A stretch of DNA of 61,396 nucleotides from Sulfurimonas sp. endosymbiont of Alviniconcha boucheti (GTDB taxonomy: Bacteria > Campylobacterota > Campylobacteria > Campylobacterales > Sulfurimonadaceae). Both the position numbers and the translations under genes were made by a program. How positions within the stretch are numbered: position 1 is the first letter of the stretch; every line of letters starts with the position of its first letter. The notes beneath the pieces were generated by a model that did no database searches, was not told the origin of the DNA, and worked only from the letters and a program-made list of their open reading frames with translations. Of the stretch, positions 4,092 to 61,396 are shown one piece after another. The DNA is taken from positions 437,951 to 499,346 of the forward strand of contig JAICBP010000084.1 of NCBI GenBank assembly GCA_021766785.1, given 5' to 3'.

Positions 4092-5093
4092 TTATCGAGA
4101 GATATGTAAAGCCATATCTACTAAACGCATAGAGTAACCCCACTCATTATCGTACCAAGCCATGATCTTCACCATGTCTCCTCCTATAACCTGAGTCAAA
4201 TCCTCAGCAACAATAGAAGAGTACTCACACCCTACAAAATCTTGAGAAACTCTCATCTCTTTGTCCATAAGAAGTAAGCCTTTAAGTCTGCCCTCTGCTG
4301 CTTCATTGAAAACTTTTGTCACCTCTTCTTTTGTTGTACCTCGTTTTACCACGACATTTAAGTCCACCATAGAGACATCTGGTGTCGGAACACGAACAGA
4401 CTGTCCATGAAGACGACCTTCAAGCTGAGGCATAACAAGGCTAATAGCTTTTGCAGCACCTGTTGTCGTAGGGATCATATTGATAGCACCTGCACGAGCA
4501 CGGCGTTTATCTTTTGAGTGTTTTACATCTAAGATGTTTTGATCGTTTGTATATGAGTGAATAGTAGTCATAAGTCCCTTTTCAATACCAAAAGCATCAT
4601 CTAAAATACGAGCGACAGGACCTAAGCAGTTTGTAGTACAACTGGCGTTTGATACGATCTTTTGCCCATCATATAGTTCTTCGTTTACACCCATAACAAA
4701 AGTATCTGTTTCTTTATCCTTTGATGGTGCAGAAAAAAGTACTTTTTCAATACCATTATCTAAATGTACTTGTGCAGACTCTTGTGTTAGGAAAACGCCT
4801 GTACACTCTAAAACCATATCTGCACCGCACTCAGCGAACTTGAGATTTTTAGGATCACGGTCAGAAAACACTCTTATCTTTTGACCATCAATGCTAATAT
4901 TTTCTTCATCTAATTGCTCTACACTACTTGTGAATGTAGCATGTACTGAATCATTTTTGAGAAGATATAACATCATTTCCATACTTGCCATATCGTTAAT
5001 CGCTACAACTTCAACATCATCTCTATTAGCTGCTATACGAGCGACACAACGACCAATTCTACCAAATCCATTAATTGCTATTTTAAGTGCCAT
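4092..5093 (-). CDS. gap: Glyceraldehyde-3-phosphate dehydrogenase, type I
   Basis: A 333-residue NAD(P)-dependent enzyme oxidising glyceraldehyde 3-phosphate to 1,3-bisphosphoglycerate. The Rossmann start is KIAINGFGRIGRCVAR. The catalytic cysteine sits in SNASCTTNCLGP near residue 152, the active histidine in TIHSYTNDQ, and the family phrase WYDNEWGYSMRLVD lies near the C-terminus. It is the first gene of the gap-pgk-tpiA block. The start is 60 bases from the divergent nadD-rsfS gene, so both promoters share a short AT-rich spacer. This is housekeeping carbon metabolism; in autotrophic relatives it also serves gluconeogenesis. Confidence 0.95.
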   Translation of the reverse strand: MALKIAINGFGRIGRCVARIAANRDDVEVVAINDMASMEMMLYLLKNDSVHATFTSSVEQLDEENISIDGQKIRVFSDRDPKNLKFAECGADMVLECTGVFLTQESAQVHLDNGIEKVLFSAPSKDKETDTFVMGVNEELYDGQKIVSNASCTTNCLGPVARILDDAFGIEKGLMTTIHSYTNDQNILDVKHSKDKRRARAGAINMIPTTTGAAKAISLVMPQLEGRLHGQSVRVPTPDVSMVDLNVVVKRGTTKEEVTKVFNEAAEGRLKGLLLMDKEMRVSQDFVGCEYSSIVAEDLTQVIGGDMVKIMAWYDNEWGYSMRLVDMALHISR

Positions 5094-5153
5094 TATAATT
5101 CCTATAATTTTAATTCAATTATTTTAACTAAATTTAGCTATAATTCCTATTAA

Positions 5154-6029
5154 ATGAAAACTATTGCACTTTTTGGAGGAAGTTTTGATCCTCCTCATCT
5201 TGGACACTATAGTATTGTGCATGCACTTTTAGAGATAAAAGAGATTGATGAAATCATCGTAATGCCCACCTATCTAAATCCATTTAAAGATGCTTCATTT
5301 GCTCCAGCAGAGCTACGTTTGCGATGGCTTAAAGAGATATTTAAAGAAGAAAGAAAAGTCACTGTGAGTGATTTTGAAATACAAGAAGAGAAAAAAGTTC
5401 CAACCATTACGACAGTAGAAAATCTATCCAAAAATTGTGATAAAATTTATCTCATAATTGGAGCTGATAATCTAAAAGGTTTGCACTCTTGGTATCGTTA
5501 TAGTGAACTAGAAAAACTTGTAACTTTCATGGTAGCACATAGAGAGAGTATTTCTATACCTCCTTACTATGCCGATCTGCAAGTTGAAGTAAATATCTCT
5601 TCTTCAGAGATTCGTAAGAACATACAAGAAGAGATGCTCTGTAGAGTAAATGCTAAAGAGATAGTGCAGTATTATAAAAAACAATTAAGGACAACAATGA
5701 GAGAGAGAATAAAAAAAATCACAAATGTACTCGATACTAATAAAGCAGAAGATATAGAGGTTTTTGATCTTCATGAAAAAAACTACTTCGTGGAGTATGC
5801 TATCATTGCTTCATCACTTGGAAGCAGACATACTCTAGCACTTCTTGATCACCTAAAAAAAGGTATAAAACCAGAAGAGACTTTTAACAATGTCGATGAA
5901 AGTGGTGACTGGGTTGTTATAGACTTAGGTGATCTTCTCATACATATCATGACAGCTGAGTATAGAGCAAAGTATGATATGGAGACTTTTTTAAGTGAGC
6001 TTGGGCAATCTACTGGTGAGGAGTGGTAA
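5154..6029 (+). CDS. nadD: Fusion of nicotinate-nucleotide adenylyltransferase (NadD) and ribosomal silencing factor (RsfS)
   Basis: Residues 1-181 are NadD, which adenylates nicotinate mononucleotide in NAD synthesis. The nucleotidyltransferase signature [11 protein letters not shown] is at the start, ISSSEIR lies near residue 165, and LIIGADNL is in the middle. From residue 182 ([12 protein letters not shown]) to the end is an RsfS/DUF143 domain with the family phrases [26 protein letters not shown] and [10 protein letters not shown]; RsfS binds L14 and blocks subunit joining. No stop separates them, so they form one 291-residue frame. In Campylobacter the two are separate neighbours. An AAGGA precedes the ATG at residue 182, so free RsfS may also be made. 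The 3' end overlaps the convergent transglycosylase gene by 20 bases. Confidence 0.9.
5687..5699 (+). promoter_or_regulatory. rsfS: Internal ribosome-binding site and start codon for RsfS
   Basis: AAGGA at 5687-5691, five bases, then ATG at 5697-5699 in frame with the upstream NadD part. Spacing and strength are those of a normal start, so a separate RsfS of about 109 residues could be translated from the same message. Confidence 0.55.
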
Positions 6030-7434
6030 GTTTAGACTGAGAAAGCAACTGATTTTCTAGTATATCTCTGTAATTATAAATAGACTCCACATATTTTACA
6101 GCTTCATTTCCTCTTGAGTAGCCATACTTCAAACCTCTATAGTATTTCTTCTGTGAAAGCAGAGGAAGTACTACTTTTAGATCACTCCATATATTTTCAT
6201 TAAGTCCTGTCTCTTTTGCAAGAATCTGTGCATCTCTAATATGTCCCATCCCTATATCATATGCGGCAAGTGCAAATTTGAGCCGATTTTCTCCTTTTAC
6301 CTTATCATCTACAAGCTTTAACATCTGTTTAATATGTCGTGTACCGCCAACTATACTCTCTTTTGGATTAAGTCTATTTTTGACACCAAGGAGTTTTGCT
6401 GTATGGCGAGTAAGCATCATTAATCCTCTTACACCTGTAAAACTTTTAGCTTTTGCATTCCAATGAGACTCTTGGTAAGAGATAGCAGCAATAAGTGTCC
6501 ATGGAATACCAAATTTCGTTGCCGCTTCTTGAAAAATTTTTTTGTATTTTGAAAGTCTTGATTTTATACGCTTATAAAATACCTTTATATTATAATAATC
6601 GAAAAAGAGAACATAAGAGTAGTAGTGATCTTTAAGTTGAGCTATCTTTCCTTGCTGATTATAGAAGTTTAACCATGTGTACATATCTTCTTTAAGATAT
6701 GTTGCACCAGCTGGAAGAATCCATGCAAGTTGCTCACGACCACTGATAGAAAATGCCATAGCGATTTCAGGATAATAACGTAGGTTCAAAGCATAAATAT
6801 TTGAATCGACTATGGTGCAGTCTATTTGATGTTTAGAGACTTTTTCTAAAATTTCCTCTGTTGAAAGATCTTTTGTATAAGTAGCATTTATATCAAAACC
6901 ATCATTTTTTAAGGAGATAATAGTCTCTTTATAACTTGTCTGATCCCCTACTAAGATGTTGAGACCAGCTAAATCTTCAATATCACGTGGAAAGATATTT
7001 TTATTTAACATATCTCGATGACAAACAACTTGTTCTTGTATTTCAAAATAGGAAGGACCAAAATAGTATTTTTTTTCTCGTAATGGCGTTTTTGTCAATG
7101 ATGCGGAGGTAATATCTATATCACTATCTTTACTTAGTTCTAATGCTTCTGCTATAGTATGTGCTGTTTTTATTTTAAGTTTCACTCCAAGATGTTTTGC
7201 GTACTCTTTAAGAAGATCATACTCAAAGCCTTGTTCCCCATCTACACCGATATAATAAGTTGTAGGACCATTTAAAAGTACTACACTCAGTACTTTTTTT
7301 CGTTTTATTTTCTCTAAATAAGAGATCTTTTTTATCTTTTTTCCTGGAGTATAGGCACTATGACTTAACCATCCAAAAATGAAGAGAGAAGATGCAAAAA
7401 AGCTAGAGAGCAAGAGGTACGATATTTTATTCAT
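6010..7434 (-). CDS. mltF: MltF-like membrane-bound lytic transglycosylase
   Basis: A 474-residue protein starting with a membrane anchor or signal (residues 5-25). Residues about 45-270 form a periplasmic solute-binding fold, with [32 protein letters not shown] and [15 protein letters not shown]. Residues about 300-455 form a goose-lysozyme-like SLT domain with the catalytic glutamate in [14 protein letters not shown] near residue 323 and the phrases [13 protein letters not shown] and [13 protein letters not shown]. This is the MltF architecture, which cleaves the glycan strands of peptidoglycan from the outer-membrane side. The 3' end overlaps nadD-rsfS by 20 bases in convergent orientation, and the histidine kinase gene lies 23 bases upstream. 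Confidence 0.85.
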
Positions 7435-31861: not shown

Positions 31862-31950
31862 TGGTGGACCCTCAGGGATTCGAACCCTGGGAGGTGTGAC
31901 CCTCGCCGGTTTTCAAGACCGGTGCATTCGACCAACTCTGCCAAAGATCC
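31862..31950 (-). tRNA. tRNA-Ser (anticodon TGA)
   Basis: The minus strand gives a class II tRNA of 89 bases with encoded CCA. The acceptor GGATCTT pairs with AGGGTCC (three G-U wobbles counted in). The anticodon loop is CTTGAAA, followed by a long variable arm and the T-arm CAGGGTTCGAATCCCTG. Its 3' end faces the accessory island. Confidence 0.93.
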
Positions 31951-31979
31951 ACATCTATTTTATTATAAACTATATAAAA

Positions 31980-32053
31980 TGGAGGTGCCACCCAGATTTG
32001 AACTGGGGATAGCAGCTTTGCAGGCTGCGGCCTTACCACTTGGCGATGGCACC
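31980..32053 (-). tRNA. tRNA-Cys (anticodon GCA)
   Basis: 74 bases with encoded CCA. The acceptor GGTGCCA pairs with TGGCACC, the anticodon arm is CAGCCTGCAAAGCTG, and the T-arm is CCCAGTTCAAATCTGGG. It is 27 bases from the tRNA-Leu gene. Confidence 0.95.
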
Positions 32054-32076
32054 AGTCAATTTATCTTTCACATCGA

Positions 32077-32163
32077 TGGTGCCCGGAGCCGGACTTGAAC
32101 CGGCACAGTATTGCTACCGGGGGATTTTAAGTCCCCTGCGTCTACCAATTTCGCCATCCGGGC
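32077..32163 (-). tRNA. tRNA-Leu (anticodon TAA)
   Basis: 87-base class II tRNA with encoded CCA. The acceptor GCCCGGA pairs with TCCGGGC, the anticodon loop is CTTAAAA within GGGGA and TCCCC, and the T-arm is GCCGGTTCAAGTCCGGC. Confidence 0.95.
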
Positions 32164-32203
32164 ATCTATCTATGAAATTATAGTTTTATAATATTAAATT
32201 AAA

Positions 32204-32278
32204 TGGAGCGGGAAACGAGGTTCGAACTCGCGACCCCAACCTTGGCAAGGTTATGCTCTACCACTGAGCTATTCCCGC
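32204..32278 (-). tRNA. tRNA-Gly (anticodon GCC)
   Basis: 75 bases with encoded CCA. The acceptor GCGGGAA pairs with TTCCCGC, the anticodon arm is AACCTTGCCAAGGTT, and the T-arm is GCGAGTTCGAACCTCGT. It is first in the four-tRNA cluster on the minus strand (Gly-Leu-Cys-Ser). Confidence 0.95.
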
Positions 32279-49198: not shown

Positions 49199-50488
49199 TT
49201 AAGTTAAAACCATATAACATTCATAGAGAACATAAAAAAAGAGAGAGAGGGTGTAAGTCACTAAGAGTAGTAGAATTTTTTTTCTATAAAGCGTAAGTAG
49301 AGAGAGTAAAATTTGCACTACTAAAAAGTAGTAACTTATTTCTATGAGTATGCTCTCCTCTCCTAACTGCATCAGATTTCGTAGTAAAAAATCTAGTAAA
49401 TCCCCATGTCCTAATATATGTAAAAGAATTGCCAATGGATAGTAGAGTGTAAAGAGAGAAGTCCAGAGTATGGAGAGTGGATGGTAGATACTAAAGTTAG
49501 CAAAGATGACTAAAGAGTATGGGAGCATCATAAGATAAACCCAGAGTGGTAAGATTAAAAATTGCCAAAGTTTTGAGTGGCGTTTAAAAAAGATAAGAAA
49601 CAAAAAGATGTAAAACACACCACTACTACTAAGCCAAAAACCTAGACTGAAGAAAAGTCGTACAAAGAGGGCTAAGATAAGTAAAATGGTAAGAAGCAGA
49701 GTCTCCATAGAGAGTACTTCAACTCCTCTATCATAAAGTACAAAACCGACAATAAGCATCACAAAAGCTCGAAGCAGAGAGGGTGGTGAGTCTAAAAAAA
49801 GTAGATAACTCAAAAGAAAAAAGCCTATCATGATAAAAGAGTCCACCTTATAACTTCTATAAGGAAAAAATCTATCTTGTAAAAATCTATAAGGGTATTT
49901 TATGAGAAAAAAGAGCAAAGCAGAGAGTGCACCTAAGTGAAAACCACTAATAGCAATGAGATGTGAAACACCAAGATTTGAAAAGATTTTTTGTAACTCA
50001 TAAGGAAGCTGCTTTGCTGAAAAAAGTGCTTGATAGAGTAGTGATATATCTTTATCTTTATGCTGCTTATCTATAAAATTATTGAGCCTTTTTTTGTAGG
50101 AGTTATCGGGGTAGATTTTAAGAATTTTAGAAAAACAGTAGAAGCCATGCATATACTCATAAAAGCTGATTTTACCTGCCCATACCTCTAACTGTACTCT
50201 TGTATATTTTATATTTGAAAGTTTTTTACTTGCTGTAGAGTAAAAAACAAAGCCTTTATCACTTTTAAACTTAAGCACTTGATAGGTTTTTATTTTGCCT
50301 TTTTTTGTAAGTTTTGATTTTGAGTACTGCTTGAGAACTGTGGCGTTTACAAGTTGAGAGTCAAACTTTGTAAGCTCTTTATAGTTATAATACTCAAAGC
50401 TTATAGAGAGTGTAAAAAGTACAAAAAGAAGTAAAAGAAGATGGAGAGAGTCTCGCCTATTTCTAAAGAGGGGAACTTTCTCTAGCAT
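49199..50488 (-). CDS. comEC: ComEC/Rec2-type competence DNA channel (short form)
   Basis: A 429-residue membrane protein from ATG at 50488. It has one helix near residues 15-35, then a soluble OB-like segment, then the competence domain with FSNLGVSHLIAISGFHLGAL and a run of about eight helices including DSPPSLLRAFVMLIVGFVLY. ComEC carries transforming single-stranded DNA across the inner membrane. There is no C-terminal metallo-beta-lactamase domain, as in other Campylobacterota. It starts one base after the dnaB stop. A longer frame inside dnaB is rejected. Three copies of the YGGCGTTTR motif lie in or beside it. Confidence 0.87.
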   Translation of the reverse strand: MLEKVPLFRNRRDSLHLLLLLFVLFTLSISFEYYNYKELTKFDSQLVNATVLKQYSKSKLTKKGKIKTYQVLKFKSDKGFVFYSTASKKLSNIKYTRVQLEVWAGKISFYEYMHGFYCFSKILKIYPDNSYKKRLNNFIDKQHKDKDISLLYQALFSAKQLPYELQKIFSNLGVSHLIAISGFHLGALSALLFFLIKYPYRFLQDRFFPYRSYKVDSFIMIGFFLLSYLLFLDSPPSLLRAFVMLIVGFVLYDRGVEVLSMETLLLTILLILALFVRLFFSLGFWLSSSGVFYIFLFLIFFKRHSKLWQFLILPLWVYLMMLPYSLVIFANFSIYHPLSILWTSLFTLYYPLAILLHILGHGDLLDFLLRNLMQLGEESILIEISYYFLVVQILLSLLTLYRKKILLLLVTYTLSLFFYVLYECYMVLT

Positions 50489-50489
50489 T

Positions 50490-51935
50490 TTAGAGTGTTG
50501 GCATATCCGCTTTAGGAACATCCATCTGTGCAGATGATGTGTCAATGTTCTCATAAACAGTCTCAATACCAGCACTAAAAGTAGGTCTATCTATAAAACG
50601 AGTAAGTTTTTTCTGAAAAATAAGTTTGACATGTCCTGTAGGACCATTACGCTGTTTACCTATAATGATTTCTGCTTCTTCTTCCTCTTTCTCTATATAC
50701 TCAGAGACAAACTCTTTTCCTTCTGCTTTAGCAGCTTTTTCTCGTTCTTTCTCTTCCTTGTAGAGATAAACATCATCACGATAAACAAAGAGAATAATAT
50801 CGGCATCTTGCTCAATAGAACCAGACTCACGAATATCACTTAGCATAGGACGTTTATCATTACGAGACTCTAATCCACGGTTGAGTTGAGAGAGTGCGAC
50901 TATTGGCATCTCAAGCTCACGTGCAAGCATCTTCAGCCCACGAGAGATATCTGAAACTTGAAGGTGTCGATCTTGGTTTCCACTACCTTGCATAATTTGG
51001 AGATAATCTATGACCGCTATCTCTATCTCTGGATGTTGGTTTTTAAGTTTACGTAGCTTACTACGAAGTTGGTTGATATTGATACTTCCTTGATCATCAA
51101 CATAAAGTTTTGCACTATTCATATTATCGATGGCACCATTGAGACTTGACCACTGATCATCATTCATATCCCCCACACGAAGTTTTTGTAAAGGTATAGA
51201 AGTCTGTATGGAGAGTAGACGTAACATTAGCTGTTCAGCAGGCATTTCAAGGGAGAAGAAGGCTACACCTTTTCCATTCATAATGAGACTATTTACTGTA
51301 TTGAGTATAAATGAAGTTTTCCCCATTGCTGGACGTGCAGCGATAATAACTAGGTCACCCTTTCCAAAACCAGTTGTCATTTTATTGAGTTCTGCATATC
51401 CTGTATCAACACCTACTAGGAGATTATTTCCACGAGCTTTCATCTCTTTGATGTACTCCATTGTATCAAAGGTCATTTTTGGGGCATCTTTGAAGTCTGA
51501 AGTTTGGTTATCCTGAGTAATATCATAGAGTTTTTTCTCTACTATGTCTATGACTTCAGAGGAAGGAAGCTCCTCTTCTACTGTTACCCGTTTTATCTCA
51601 GTTGTGAGTGTTAAGAGATGGCGTTTAAGAGACTTCTCTTTTATCTCATCCACATAGGCTTTTGTATTTGAGATAGGGTTCGCAGAGAGTATCTCAATCA
51701 TCACCTGTTCATCAAACTTCTTTATCTTGATAAGCTCTTTTTTAATGAACTCTTCATCTATTGGTTGATCTTTTTGAAAAAGTAACATCATAACATTGAA
51801 AATATCTTGATGTGCAGGGAGATAAAAATCATCCTCACTTAAAGTAGTTGAGAGATCATCAAACTGACTTGGCTCAAAAACTATAGAGCTTAAGATAGAG
51901 CGTTCAAACGCTAAGTTGTAAAGATTATCTTGCAT
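50490..51935 (-). CDS. dnaB: Replicative DNA helicase DnaB
   Basis: A 481-residue hexameric helicase. The N-terminal helical domain (MQDNLYNLAFERSILSSIVF) binds primase. The RecA domain has Walker A IIAARPAMGKTSFIL, Walker B IAVIDYLQIMQG, VALSQLNRGLESR, and SDIRESGSIEQDADIILFVY. IGKQRNGPTGHVKLIF near the end is typical. It runs directly into comEC on the same strand. Confidence 0.95.
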   Translation of the reverse strand: MQDNLYNLAFERSILSSIVFEPSQFDDLSTTLSEDDFYLPAHQDIFNVMMLLFQKDQPIDEEFIKKELIKIKKFDEQVMIEILSANPISNTKAYVDEIKEKSLKRHLLTLTTEIKRVTVEEELPSSEVIDIVEKKLYDITQDNQTSDFKDAPKMTFDTMEYIKEMKARGNNLLVGVDTGYAELNKMTTGFGKGDLVIIAARPAMGKTSFILNTVNSLIMNGKGVAFFSLEMPAEQLMLRLLSIQTSIPLQKLRVGDMNDDQWSSLNGAIDNMNSAKLYVDDQGSININQLRSKLRKLKNQHPEIEIAVIDYLQIMQGSGNQDRHLQVSDISRGLKMLARELEMPIVALSQLNRGLESRNDKRPMLSDIRESGSIEQDADIILFVYRDDVYLYKEEKEREKAAKAEGKEFVSEYIEKEEEEAEIIIGKQRNGPTGHVKLIFQKKLTRFIDRPTFSAGIETVYENIDTSSAQMDVPKADMPTL

Positions 51936-59477: not shown

Positions 59478-59576
59478 ATTATAACTAAGAAAATAGGAAA
59501 AATTGACCCCGCAATAGCGGGAATCAAAGGATTAGCGAAAAGTATTGAAGATGAAAATAGTGAACTCTATTTTTAA
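59478..59576 (+). pseudogene. Short coding remnant before the SNF2 gene
   Basis: Between two minus-strand genes, the plus strand reads KKIGKIDPAIAGIKGLAKSI and EDENSELYF, then TAA. It has no start codon nearby and an in-frame stop just upstream. It looks like the C-terminus of a lost gene. The same bases form a CCCGC-AATA-GCGGG hairpin at 59508-59521. Confidence 0.3.
59508..59521. terminator. GC-rich hairpin between the surface-protein and SNF2 genes
   Basis: CCCGC at 59508-59512 and GCGGG at 59517-59521 around AATA form a strong 5-bp stem, 52 bases past the surface-protein stop. On the minus strand it is followed by CAATTTTTCC, so it may end that transcript. Confidence 0.4.
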
Positions 59577-60480
59577 TTACCAATTATAAATAAGCCCTTC
59601 TTATTATCAGTCACATAAATCTTTGTACCATCACTTGATAGAGTAACACCATATACAGCCCCAATAGCTATCTTATATGAGCCAAGCTTAGTTGGATGAG
59701 CTGGATCGCTCGTATCAACAATGACCAAATCATTAGTAGTATCAGCTAGATAAGTCTTTGTGTTATCACTTGATATAGTAACACTAAATGATCCCCCAGC
59801 TGTATCGTATGATCCAAGTTTAGTTGGATGAGCTGGATCACTTATATCTAGTATGACTAAACCATTTTCCCAATCAGCTACATAAGCCTTTGTACCATCA
59901 CTTGATAGAGTAACATTATATGCATTCCCAGCTGTATCGCATGAGCCAAGCTTAGTTGGATGAGCTGGATCACTTATATCAACTATAACTAAACCATTAG
60001 TATCATCAGCTACATAAGCCTTTGTGCCATCACTCGATAGAGTAATACCCATTGACTTCCCAGCTGTATCGTATGAGGCAAGCTTAGTTGGATGAGCTGG
60101 ATTACTTATATCTAGTATGACTAAACCATCTTCCCAATCAGCTAGATAAGCCTTTGTACTATCACTTGATAGTATAACATGTCTTGCAGTCCCAGCTGTG
60201 CCATATGAGCCAAGCTTAGTTGGATGAGCTGGATTACTTATATCTAGTATGACTAAACCATTATAACCATCAGCTACATAAGCTTTTGATCCATCACTTG
60301 ATAAAGTAACATTTTGTGAACTCCCTTTTGTATTGTATGAGCCAAGTTTAGTTGGATTTGATGGGTCGCTTATATCAACGATGACTAAACCATTACTCCA
60401 ATCAGCTACATAAGCCTTTGAGCCATTACTTGATAGAGTAACACTTACTGCAAACCCTGCTGTCTCTAATGAGCCAATCG
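59573..60480 (-). repeat. Seven tandem 132-bp repeats encoding LVIVD blades
   Basis: The phrase GTTGGATGAGCTGGA recurs with starts at 59691, 59823, 59955, 60087 and 60219 and a variant at 60351, exactly 132 bases apart. Central copies are nearly the same at the DNA level, so copy number could change by recombination. Confidence 0.9.
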
Positions 60481-61396
60481 TATATAGATTAGCAGTATCT
60501 ACCATTATCTGTACTTCTTTTCTTGTAGCAGGGGTGCTAAAGTTGTTGTCAGCAGATGTTATATAGTCTCGATACTTCTGTATATTATCTTCATCTATAT
60601 TGTTAAGTGATGGAAAGATACTCCTTAGATCTGCAACTGTTATAGTTGAACTAGCATTATGATGATCTTGTCCAATACGTACAAGAGTAGCCTTTGAAGC
60701 ATTAACTGCATCTATCATACTCTGCAGTTCAGCTCTTGTAGCCGGTGAACTAAAGCTTGTATCTGCACTTGCTATATAGCTACGATAACTATCTTGATAA
60801 TCATCATTTATATTCTCAAGTGCTGGAGTAATAGCTTTTAGTTGTGCAACTGTTACAGTTGATTTATGATTACGGTGTTCATTACCTATCACTTTGAGGA
60901 TACTAACTAATCTCTCTGCTGGCGTTTGATCTTTTATACAACGGACAGAGAATCCACGCCCACGGTAGCTATTACTATAGTCATTTGCATCCAGAGTACC
61001 GTTATGAAACCATAGGTCATGCGGGTATAGTGCGTTTTCTATTGAACCAGTCCAGTACATTCCCTCATTACCTGCATAACCTACACTGTCGCTTTTCCAG
61101 CGCATACCAGCTGTAGGCAGTTTCAGGTCACTTGACATAGAACCGCTATGATTTTGTGAGCTCCAAGTTTGTGTCTCTACATAAAATTCATTAGCAGTAT
61201 CATTTGCTTTATTTGGATTTAGTGGTAATCTGTATCCTACTGGACAGACATTGTTTGCGCTTGATTCGCTTGCCCATAGAGTATCATCTCGGTTTACTCT
61301 CCAATCACTTTGTTTGATAAAGAGTGAATCAGATGGATTATCATTTTTTGTATCTGTGTCACCGTATCTTCCAGTTCCTGTAGTAGCATCTGTCCA
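59573..61396 (-). CDS. Surface-type protein with FISUMP-like domain and seven LVIVD propeller repeats (N-terminus beyond window)
   Basis: The frame is open from the window end to 59573, giving 607 residues of a larger protein. The first ~130 residues have NNVCPVGYRLP, GMYWTGSIENALYPHDLWF and GRGFSVRCIKD, the pattern of the Fibrobacter succinogenes major paralogous domain. Then come two similar ~60-residue helical units (each with ITSADNNFSTPATRKE-like text). The last 305 residues are seven copies of a 44-residue LVIVD repeat (LVILDISNPAHPTKLGSY), enough for one seven-bladed propeller. It is probably exported and adhesin-like. An ATG at 61138 is internal, not the start. Confidence 0.8.
   Translation of the reverse strand, partial: WTDATTGTGRYGDTDTKNDNPSDSLFIKQSDWRVNRDDTLWASESSANNVCPVGYRLPLNPNKANDTANEFYVETQTWSSQNHSGSMSSDLKLPTAGMRWKSDSVGYAGNEGMYWTGSIENALYPHDLWFHNGTLDANDYSNSYRGRGFSVRCIKDQTPAERLVSILKVIGNEHRNHKSTVTVAQLKAITPALENINDDYQDSYRSYIASADTSFSSPATRAELQSMIDAVNASKATLVRIGQDHHNASSTITVADLRSIFPSLNNIDEDNIQKYRDYITSADNNFSTPATRKEVQIMVDTANLYTIGSLETAGFAVSVTLSSNGSKAYVADWSNGLVIVDISDPSNPTKLGSYNTKGSSQNVTLSSDGSKAYVADGYNGLVILDISNPAHPTKLGSYGTAGTARHVILSSDSTKAYLADWEDGLVILDISNPAHPTKLASYDTAGKSMGITLSSDGTKAYVADDTNGLVIVDISDPAHPTKLGSCDTAGNAYNVTLSSDGTKAYVADWENGLVILDISDPAHPTKLGSYDTAGGSFSVTISSDNTKTYLADTTNDLVIVDTSDPAHPTKLGSYKIAIGAVYGVTLSSDGTKIYVTDNKKGLFIIGN

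Follow-up and report, generated by a model that had tools for sequence, protein, structure and literature searches.

A young nadD-rsfS gene fusion in Sulfurimonas with a probable internal start for free RsfS

Does a gene that joins NadD and RsfS in a single reading frame still allow RsfS to be made on its own? This question is raised by one locus of Sulfurimonas sp. endosymbiont of Alviniconcha boucheti, in a 61,396-nucleotide stretch of contig JAICBP010000084.1 that was analyzed as a whole (hereafter, the window).

The open reading frame (ORF) occupies positions 5154..6029 on the plus strand and runs for 291 codons from ATG to TAA without interruption. Pfam places a CTP_transf_like domain over residues 6-155 (E 2e-21) and an RsfS domain over residues 188-279 (E 1e-20), and both NCBIfam models score above their thresholds, with 134.4 bits against a cut-off of 112.45 for NadD (TIGR00482) and 83.9 against 56.9 for RsfS (TIGR00090). 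The preliminary description of this DNA, which had proposed that one open 291-codon frame holds both proteins, is thus confirmed by the ORF call and by both databases. The two signature motifs of NadD are intact: the active-site motif of 11 residues, of GGxFDPxHxGH type and matching the family (residues 8-18; 5175..5207, plus strand), and the C-terminal SSxxIR motif, present as ISSSEIR (residues 148-154; 5595..5615, plus strand). In the RsfS part, alignment of the uL14-contact region (5898..5978, plus strand) indicates that the equivalents of W77, D81, R95 and Y98 are retained, and the segments DWVVID and YRAKY line up with solved RsfS chains. These four residues of RsfS contact uL14 (PMC3400551, PMC7125091, PMC9503621).

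A genome-wide search found no second copy of either the NadD or the RsfS domain, so the fused gene would have to supply both functions. The gene apparently stands alone on its strand here, because gapA (4092-5093, minus strand) is divergent from it and a convergent gene (6010-7434, minus strand) overlaps its last 20 bases. An AlphaFold2 model of the single fused sequence had a pLDDT of 49.5, too low to use, with a low-confidence helix across the junction.

The junction of the two domains reads TATTATAAAAAACAATTAAGGACAACAATG. It contains a putative internal Shine-Dalgarno (SD) sequence, AAGGA (5687..5691, plus strand), separated by the spacer CAACA from an ATG at 5697, and the frame that begins there (5697..6029, plus strand) aligns as a free RsfS of 110 amino acids. 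An AAGGA-N5-ATG element exactly at the RsfS start, as originally reported, is therefore present. The SD match at the junction is 6 bases long; among 339 other internal ATGs in 48 long genes of the window, a match of at least 5 bases occurs at 12 and one of 6 bases at only 1. The region around the internal start is also predicted to be unstructured, with a minimum free energy of 0 compared with a mean of -3.8.

Just upstream, the nadD tail carries a tract of six A residues (A6; 5676..5681, plus strand), on which the fused state depends. When one A was removed in silico, nadD stopped at 177 amino acids just ahead of rsfS; when one was added, nadD extended to 195 amino acids in an out-of-frame overlap. 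Because either edit restores a stop or an overlap, a net one-base change (modulo three) in this A-rich tail suffices for fusion. Programmed frameshifting at the tract was considered and dropped. A -1 slip requires its heptamer in a particular phase, and AAAAAAC is in the wrong one.

Comparison within the genus indicates how the fusion arose. Of 123 distinct NadD/RsfS pairs from the Sulfurimonas-like genus, 112 are split and 11 are fused, with at least five changes between the two states on the genus tree. The endosymbiont forms a clade with 100% support with its nearest relatives, L032, L036 and L037 (71-79% identical to it), and these three are all split, with a nadD stop. The stop that we had been advised to look for at the junction in related genomes is therefore present in the closest ones, and other members of the genus are fused. 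One of the three, L037, has TTAAGGACAACAATG in common with the window, but there the TAA serves as the nadD stop. In split species, nadD usually enters rsfS by 8-41 nucleotides in a different frame, most commonly by 11, 16 or 17, and the SD of rsfS sits within the 3' end of nadD. Judged from these comparisons, the fusion in the window is young and local, and its internal SD and ATG are inherited from an overlapping split state.

Four further fused groups occur in the genus (L033/L035/L088; L086/L089/L123; L109/L114/L138; and L154). In one of these groups, the NadD tail is shorter by about 20 residues and the ORFs have 268-270 amino acids. A search of genome contigs revealed one split relative, L031.

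Fusion is widespread in the class. In an even sample of 298 genomes of Campylobacteria, the two genes form a single unbroken, full-length frame in at least 64, spread over at least 17 of 58 genera; this is a lower bound that includes one genome added from a later search, and the true number is higher, since some Sulfurimonas genes fused through a short linker appear as two matches. A rough tree built from 243 pairs, a sample biased toward fused genes, requires at least 21 changes between split and fused states. In group f10, which we take to be Sulfurospirillum and its relatives, 39 genomes gave a match and 27 of them carry the fusion, and a single full-length fused frame is found in 32 of 48 genomes of a Campylobacter-like genus (g8; genus label inferred). 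The original suggestion that Campylobacter has two adjacent genes thus holds for part of that group, but not for those 32 genomes. The fused ORF of G166, presumably Wolinella succinogenes, encodes 297 amino acids and carries AAGGAG-N6-TTG at the RsfS start. Separately, a Sulfurospirillum-like draft (L259, from G433) has a nadD part and a fused part in different frames, and its fused gene seems to be frameshifted or misassembled.

The internal start has been retained in nearly all of these genes. Of 80 unique fused ORFs, 72 have a best SD match of 5 bases or more at the start of RsfS, whereas only 2 of the 401 remaining internal ATGs in these ORFs have a match that long. When ten more were added and a longer stretch was searched, an SD at normal spacing together with a start codon was found at the RsfS start in 89 of 90 distinct fused genes. 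The sole exception (L221) has an SD 11 nucleotides from an ATG. These counts are not independent, because the lineages share common ancestry.

Several features nonetheless distinguish conservation of a nucleotide signal from conservation of protein sequence. The AGG of the internal SD lies in all three codon phases (in 40, 33 and 16 fused genes, respectively), and the SD encodes differing peptides, including TRNP, YQGL and YKEK. Three phases and differing peptides imply that conservation acts on the nucleotide motif and not on the amino acid sequence. Where RsfS begins with TTG, the leucine codon is TTG in 14 of 14 cases, although TTG makes up 12.9% of the other leucine codons in these genes; the chance of this outcome is still near 4e-5 when the cases are counted as about five clades. 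All 15 sequences of the Sulfurospirillum-like group g27 share the string ACA AGG AAT CCA ATG without variation, whereas only 23% of comparable columns are invariant; synonymous diversity in these sequences averages 0.36, and AGG is rare elsewhere in them, at 7 of 203 other arginine codons. The occurrence of the SD in three phases with different amino acids, together with the invariable use of TTG for leucine at TTG starts, points to selection for internal initiation in fused lineages. Survival of the SD-start motif in old fused clades points the same way, despite inheritance and shared ancestry. The fusion in the window may itself be too young to show such selection.

We consider it quite probable that the fusion in the window arose recently and in frame by a small indel, that all NadD is now made in fused form, that free RsfS is supplied from the retained internal start, and that the fusion is tolerated. 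According to this model, a short insertion or deletion within the A-rich 3' end of nadD would have removed its stop codon and brought it into frame with rsfS, a gene that otherwise lies next to nadD or overlaps it. Initiation at the nadD ATG would then yield NadD-RsfS, such that no NadD would be made in any other form, and initiation at AAGGA-N5-ATG would yield free RsfS with its uL14-binding residues. Termination-reinitiation coupling is likely for overlapping nadD and rsfS. This coupling would be lost on fusion, leaving the SD-led start alone to provide free RsfS. Such coupling is described as a general principle in PMC10666635. Since the internal start appears to be under selection in fused lineages, free RsfS would be the form that must be kept, and the fusion itself appears to be tolerated and not demonstrably useful. 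Internal initiation, the ratio of the two products and the activity of the fused protein are what we infer here. The proposal in the preliminary description that the cell makes both fused and free RsfS gains support from the comparative conservation of SD and start codon, by which the internal start is very probably functional, and both forms are probably made.

Because the fused state hangs on the length of the A6 tract, which comes from one draft genome (83 contigs) of a single isolate, a sequencing or assembly error was retained as a minor alternative. There would then truly be two genes, with nadD ending in QYYKNN before its stop and rsfS beginning a few bases farther on. Deletion of one A yields exactly this layout, much like that of L037, and the three closest relatives are all split. 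However, fusion is seen in 11 of 123 genomes of the genus. Among these are three sister species whose junction is the same, and two complete single-contig genomes, L086 and L089. Moreover, the long ORFs in the window include no obviously broken genes, and six A residues make a short tract for a consensus-level indel error. We therefore regard an error as very unlikely. Another reading would make AAGGA an interdomain pause that assists folding rather than an initiation site. Its location at the domain boundary in nearly all fused genes examined fits this idea, but a start codon is kept at initiation spacing, TTG is strictly retained at non-ATG starts, and split relatives start rsfS at that very site. 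We regard a pause as very unlikely.

The preliminary description also suggested that a coupling of ribosome hibernation to NAD(P) status might be the reason for keeping the domains together. Fusion could bring NAD synthesis to the 50S subunit, or it could make silencing responsive to NAD. Consistent with such a role, fusion has recurred with both domains apparently intact, and some fused clades, such as f10, are long-lived. Many relatives are nevertheless split, the state switches within genera, and the feature most strongly conserved is the ability to make RsfS without NadD. The idea of NAD-dependent ribosomal modification was raised in 2011, when the NadD-YbeB fusion of Wolinella was listed, and neither NAD cleavage nor pyrophosphatase activity was detected for that protein, in what is the sole published test that we found (PMC3223725). 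Fusion seems to have been gained and lost in many lineages and looks like a by-product of small indels in overlapping genes. With this turnover and the negative Wolinella result, a functional link is unsupported, and we judge it unlikely. Initiation at the retained start, with the fusion tolerated, remains the reading that we prefer.

The Wolinella succinogenes protein (PMC3223725; Iojap/COG0799) has the same two domains in the same order as the ORF in the window. It was published as a protein only and assayed for NAD cleavage; the present analysis adds the internal start. That fusion was thus already known; the comparative pattern of repeated fusion with a kept start is what deserves further attention. 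In the open-licence literature, we found no report of repeated NadD-RsfS fusion or of a kept internal start, and the main text of Campylobacter jejuni Ribo-seq and transcription-start papers does not mention the locus. Another family (NF005519, PRK07152), in which NadD is fused to an HD domain that we take to be YqeK-like, likewise joins NadD to the product of a usual neighbor; its model covers only the NadD part of our ORF, at 117 bits compared with a cut-off of 315. The C-terminal 110 amino acids are an ordinary member of the RsfS/YbeB/Iojap and MALSU1 family, whose other members are free or have short N-terminal extensions, in contrast to the NadD-fused form in the window. Genes with internal-start isoforms, such as lysC (PMC11955535), also give two products from one frame. 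Unlike in lysC-type genes, the short product here would be a complete, independent protein that is encoded by a separate gene in sister species.

The start of nadD has a distinctive arrangement of its own. TATAAT, a probable -10 box, lies 9 nucleotides ahead of the nadD ATG (5139..5144, plus strand). Of 123 genomes of the genus, 116 have this hexamer 7-23 nucleotides ahead of nadD, and in 99 the distance is 7-12 nucleotides. An SD ahead of nadD is absent in 99 of 105 genus members, as it is in the window. Taken as the -10 box, TATAAT would imply a leader of about 0-5 nucleotides in most species, and Sulfurimonas nadD mRNA thus looks near-leaderless. Few of the genomes examined from outside the genus show this arrangement. 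In the window, TATAAT also occurs 6-9 nucleotides before the start, with no SD, upstream of 40619 (plus strand) and 44139 (minus strand); these two genes are perhaps near-leaderless as well. A promoter scan found sigma-70-like sites no more often than in shuffled sequences. One can imagine a single Sulfurimonas mRNA whose starts differ in kind: that of nadD (or NadD-RsfS) would be near-leaderless, of the type that intact 70S ribosomes favor, and that of free RsfS would be SD-led. Because RsfS keeps ribosomal subunits apart, it might, speculatively, selectively reduce output from the nadD start without shutting off its own translation. We think this feedback very unlikely; if true, it would form a loop that ties NAD synthesis to ribosome silencing.

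Other features of the window include a cluster of four tRNA genes (31865-32278, minus strand); an Rfam search of the window returned tRNAs only. A 132-bp tandem repeat of about 6.6 copies (59606-60477) lies inside an ORF at 59573-61138 (minus strand). Two long ORFs on the same strand, 49199-50575 and 50490-51935, overlap by 86 bases, probably because a GTG start was wrongly assigned and not because of a frameshift.

The nadD-rsfS genes of Campylobacteria provide a natural series of repeated fusions in which the ribosome-binding site of the second protein survives inside a new coding sequence. They offer a clean case for asking whether bacterial gene fusions abolish the original separate product or only add to it. 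An annotation of such a gene as "bifunctional" may conceal a free RsfS.
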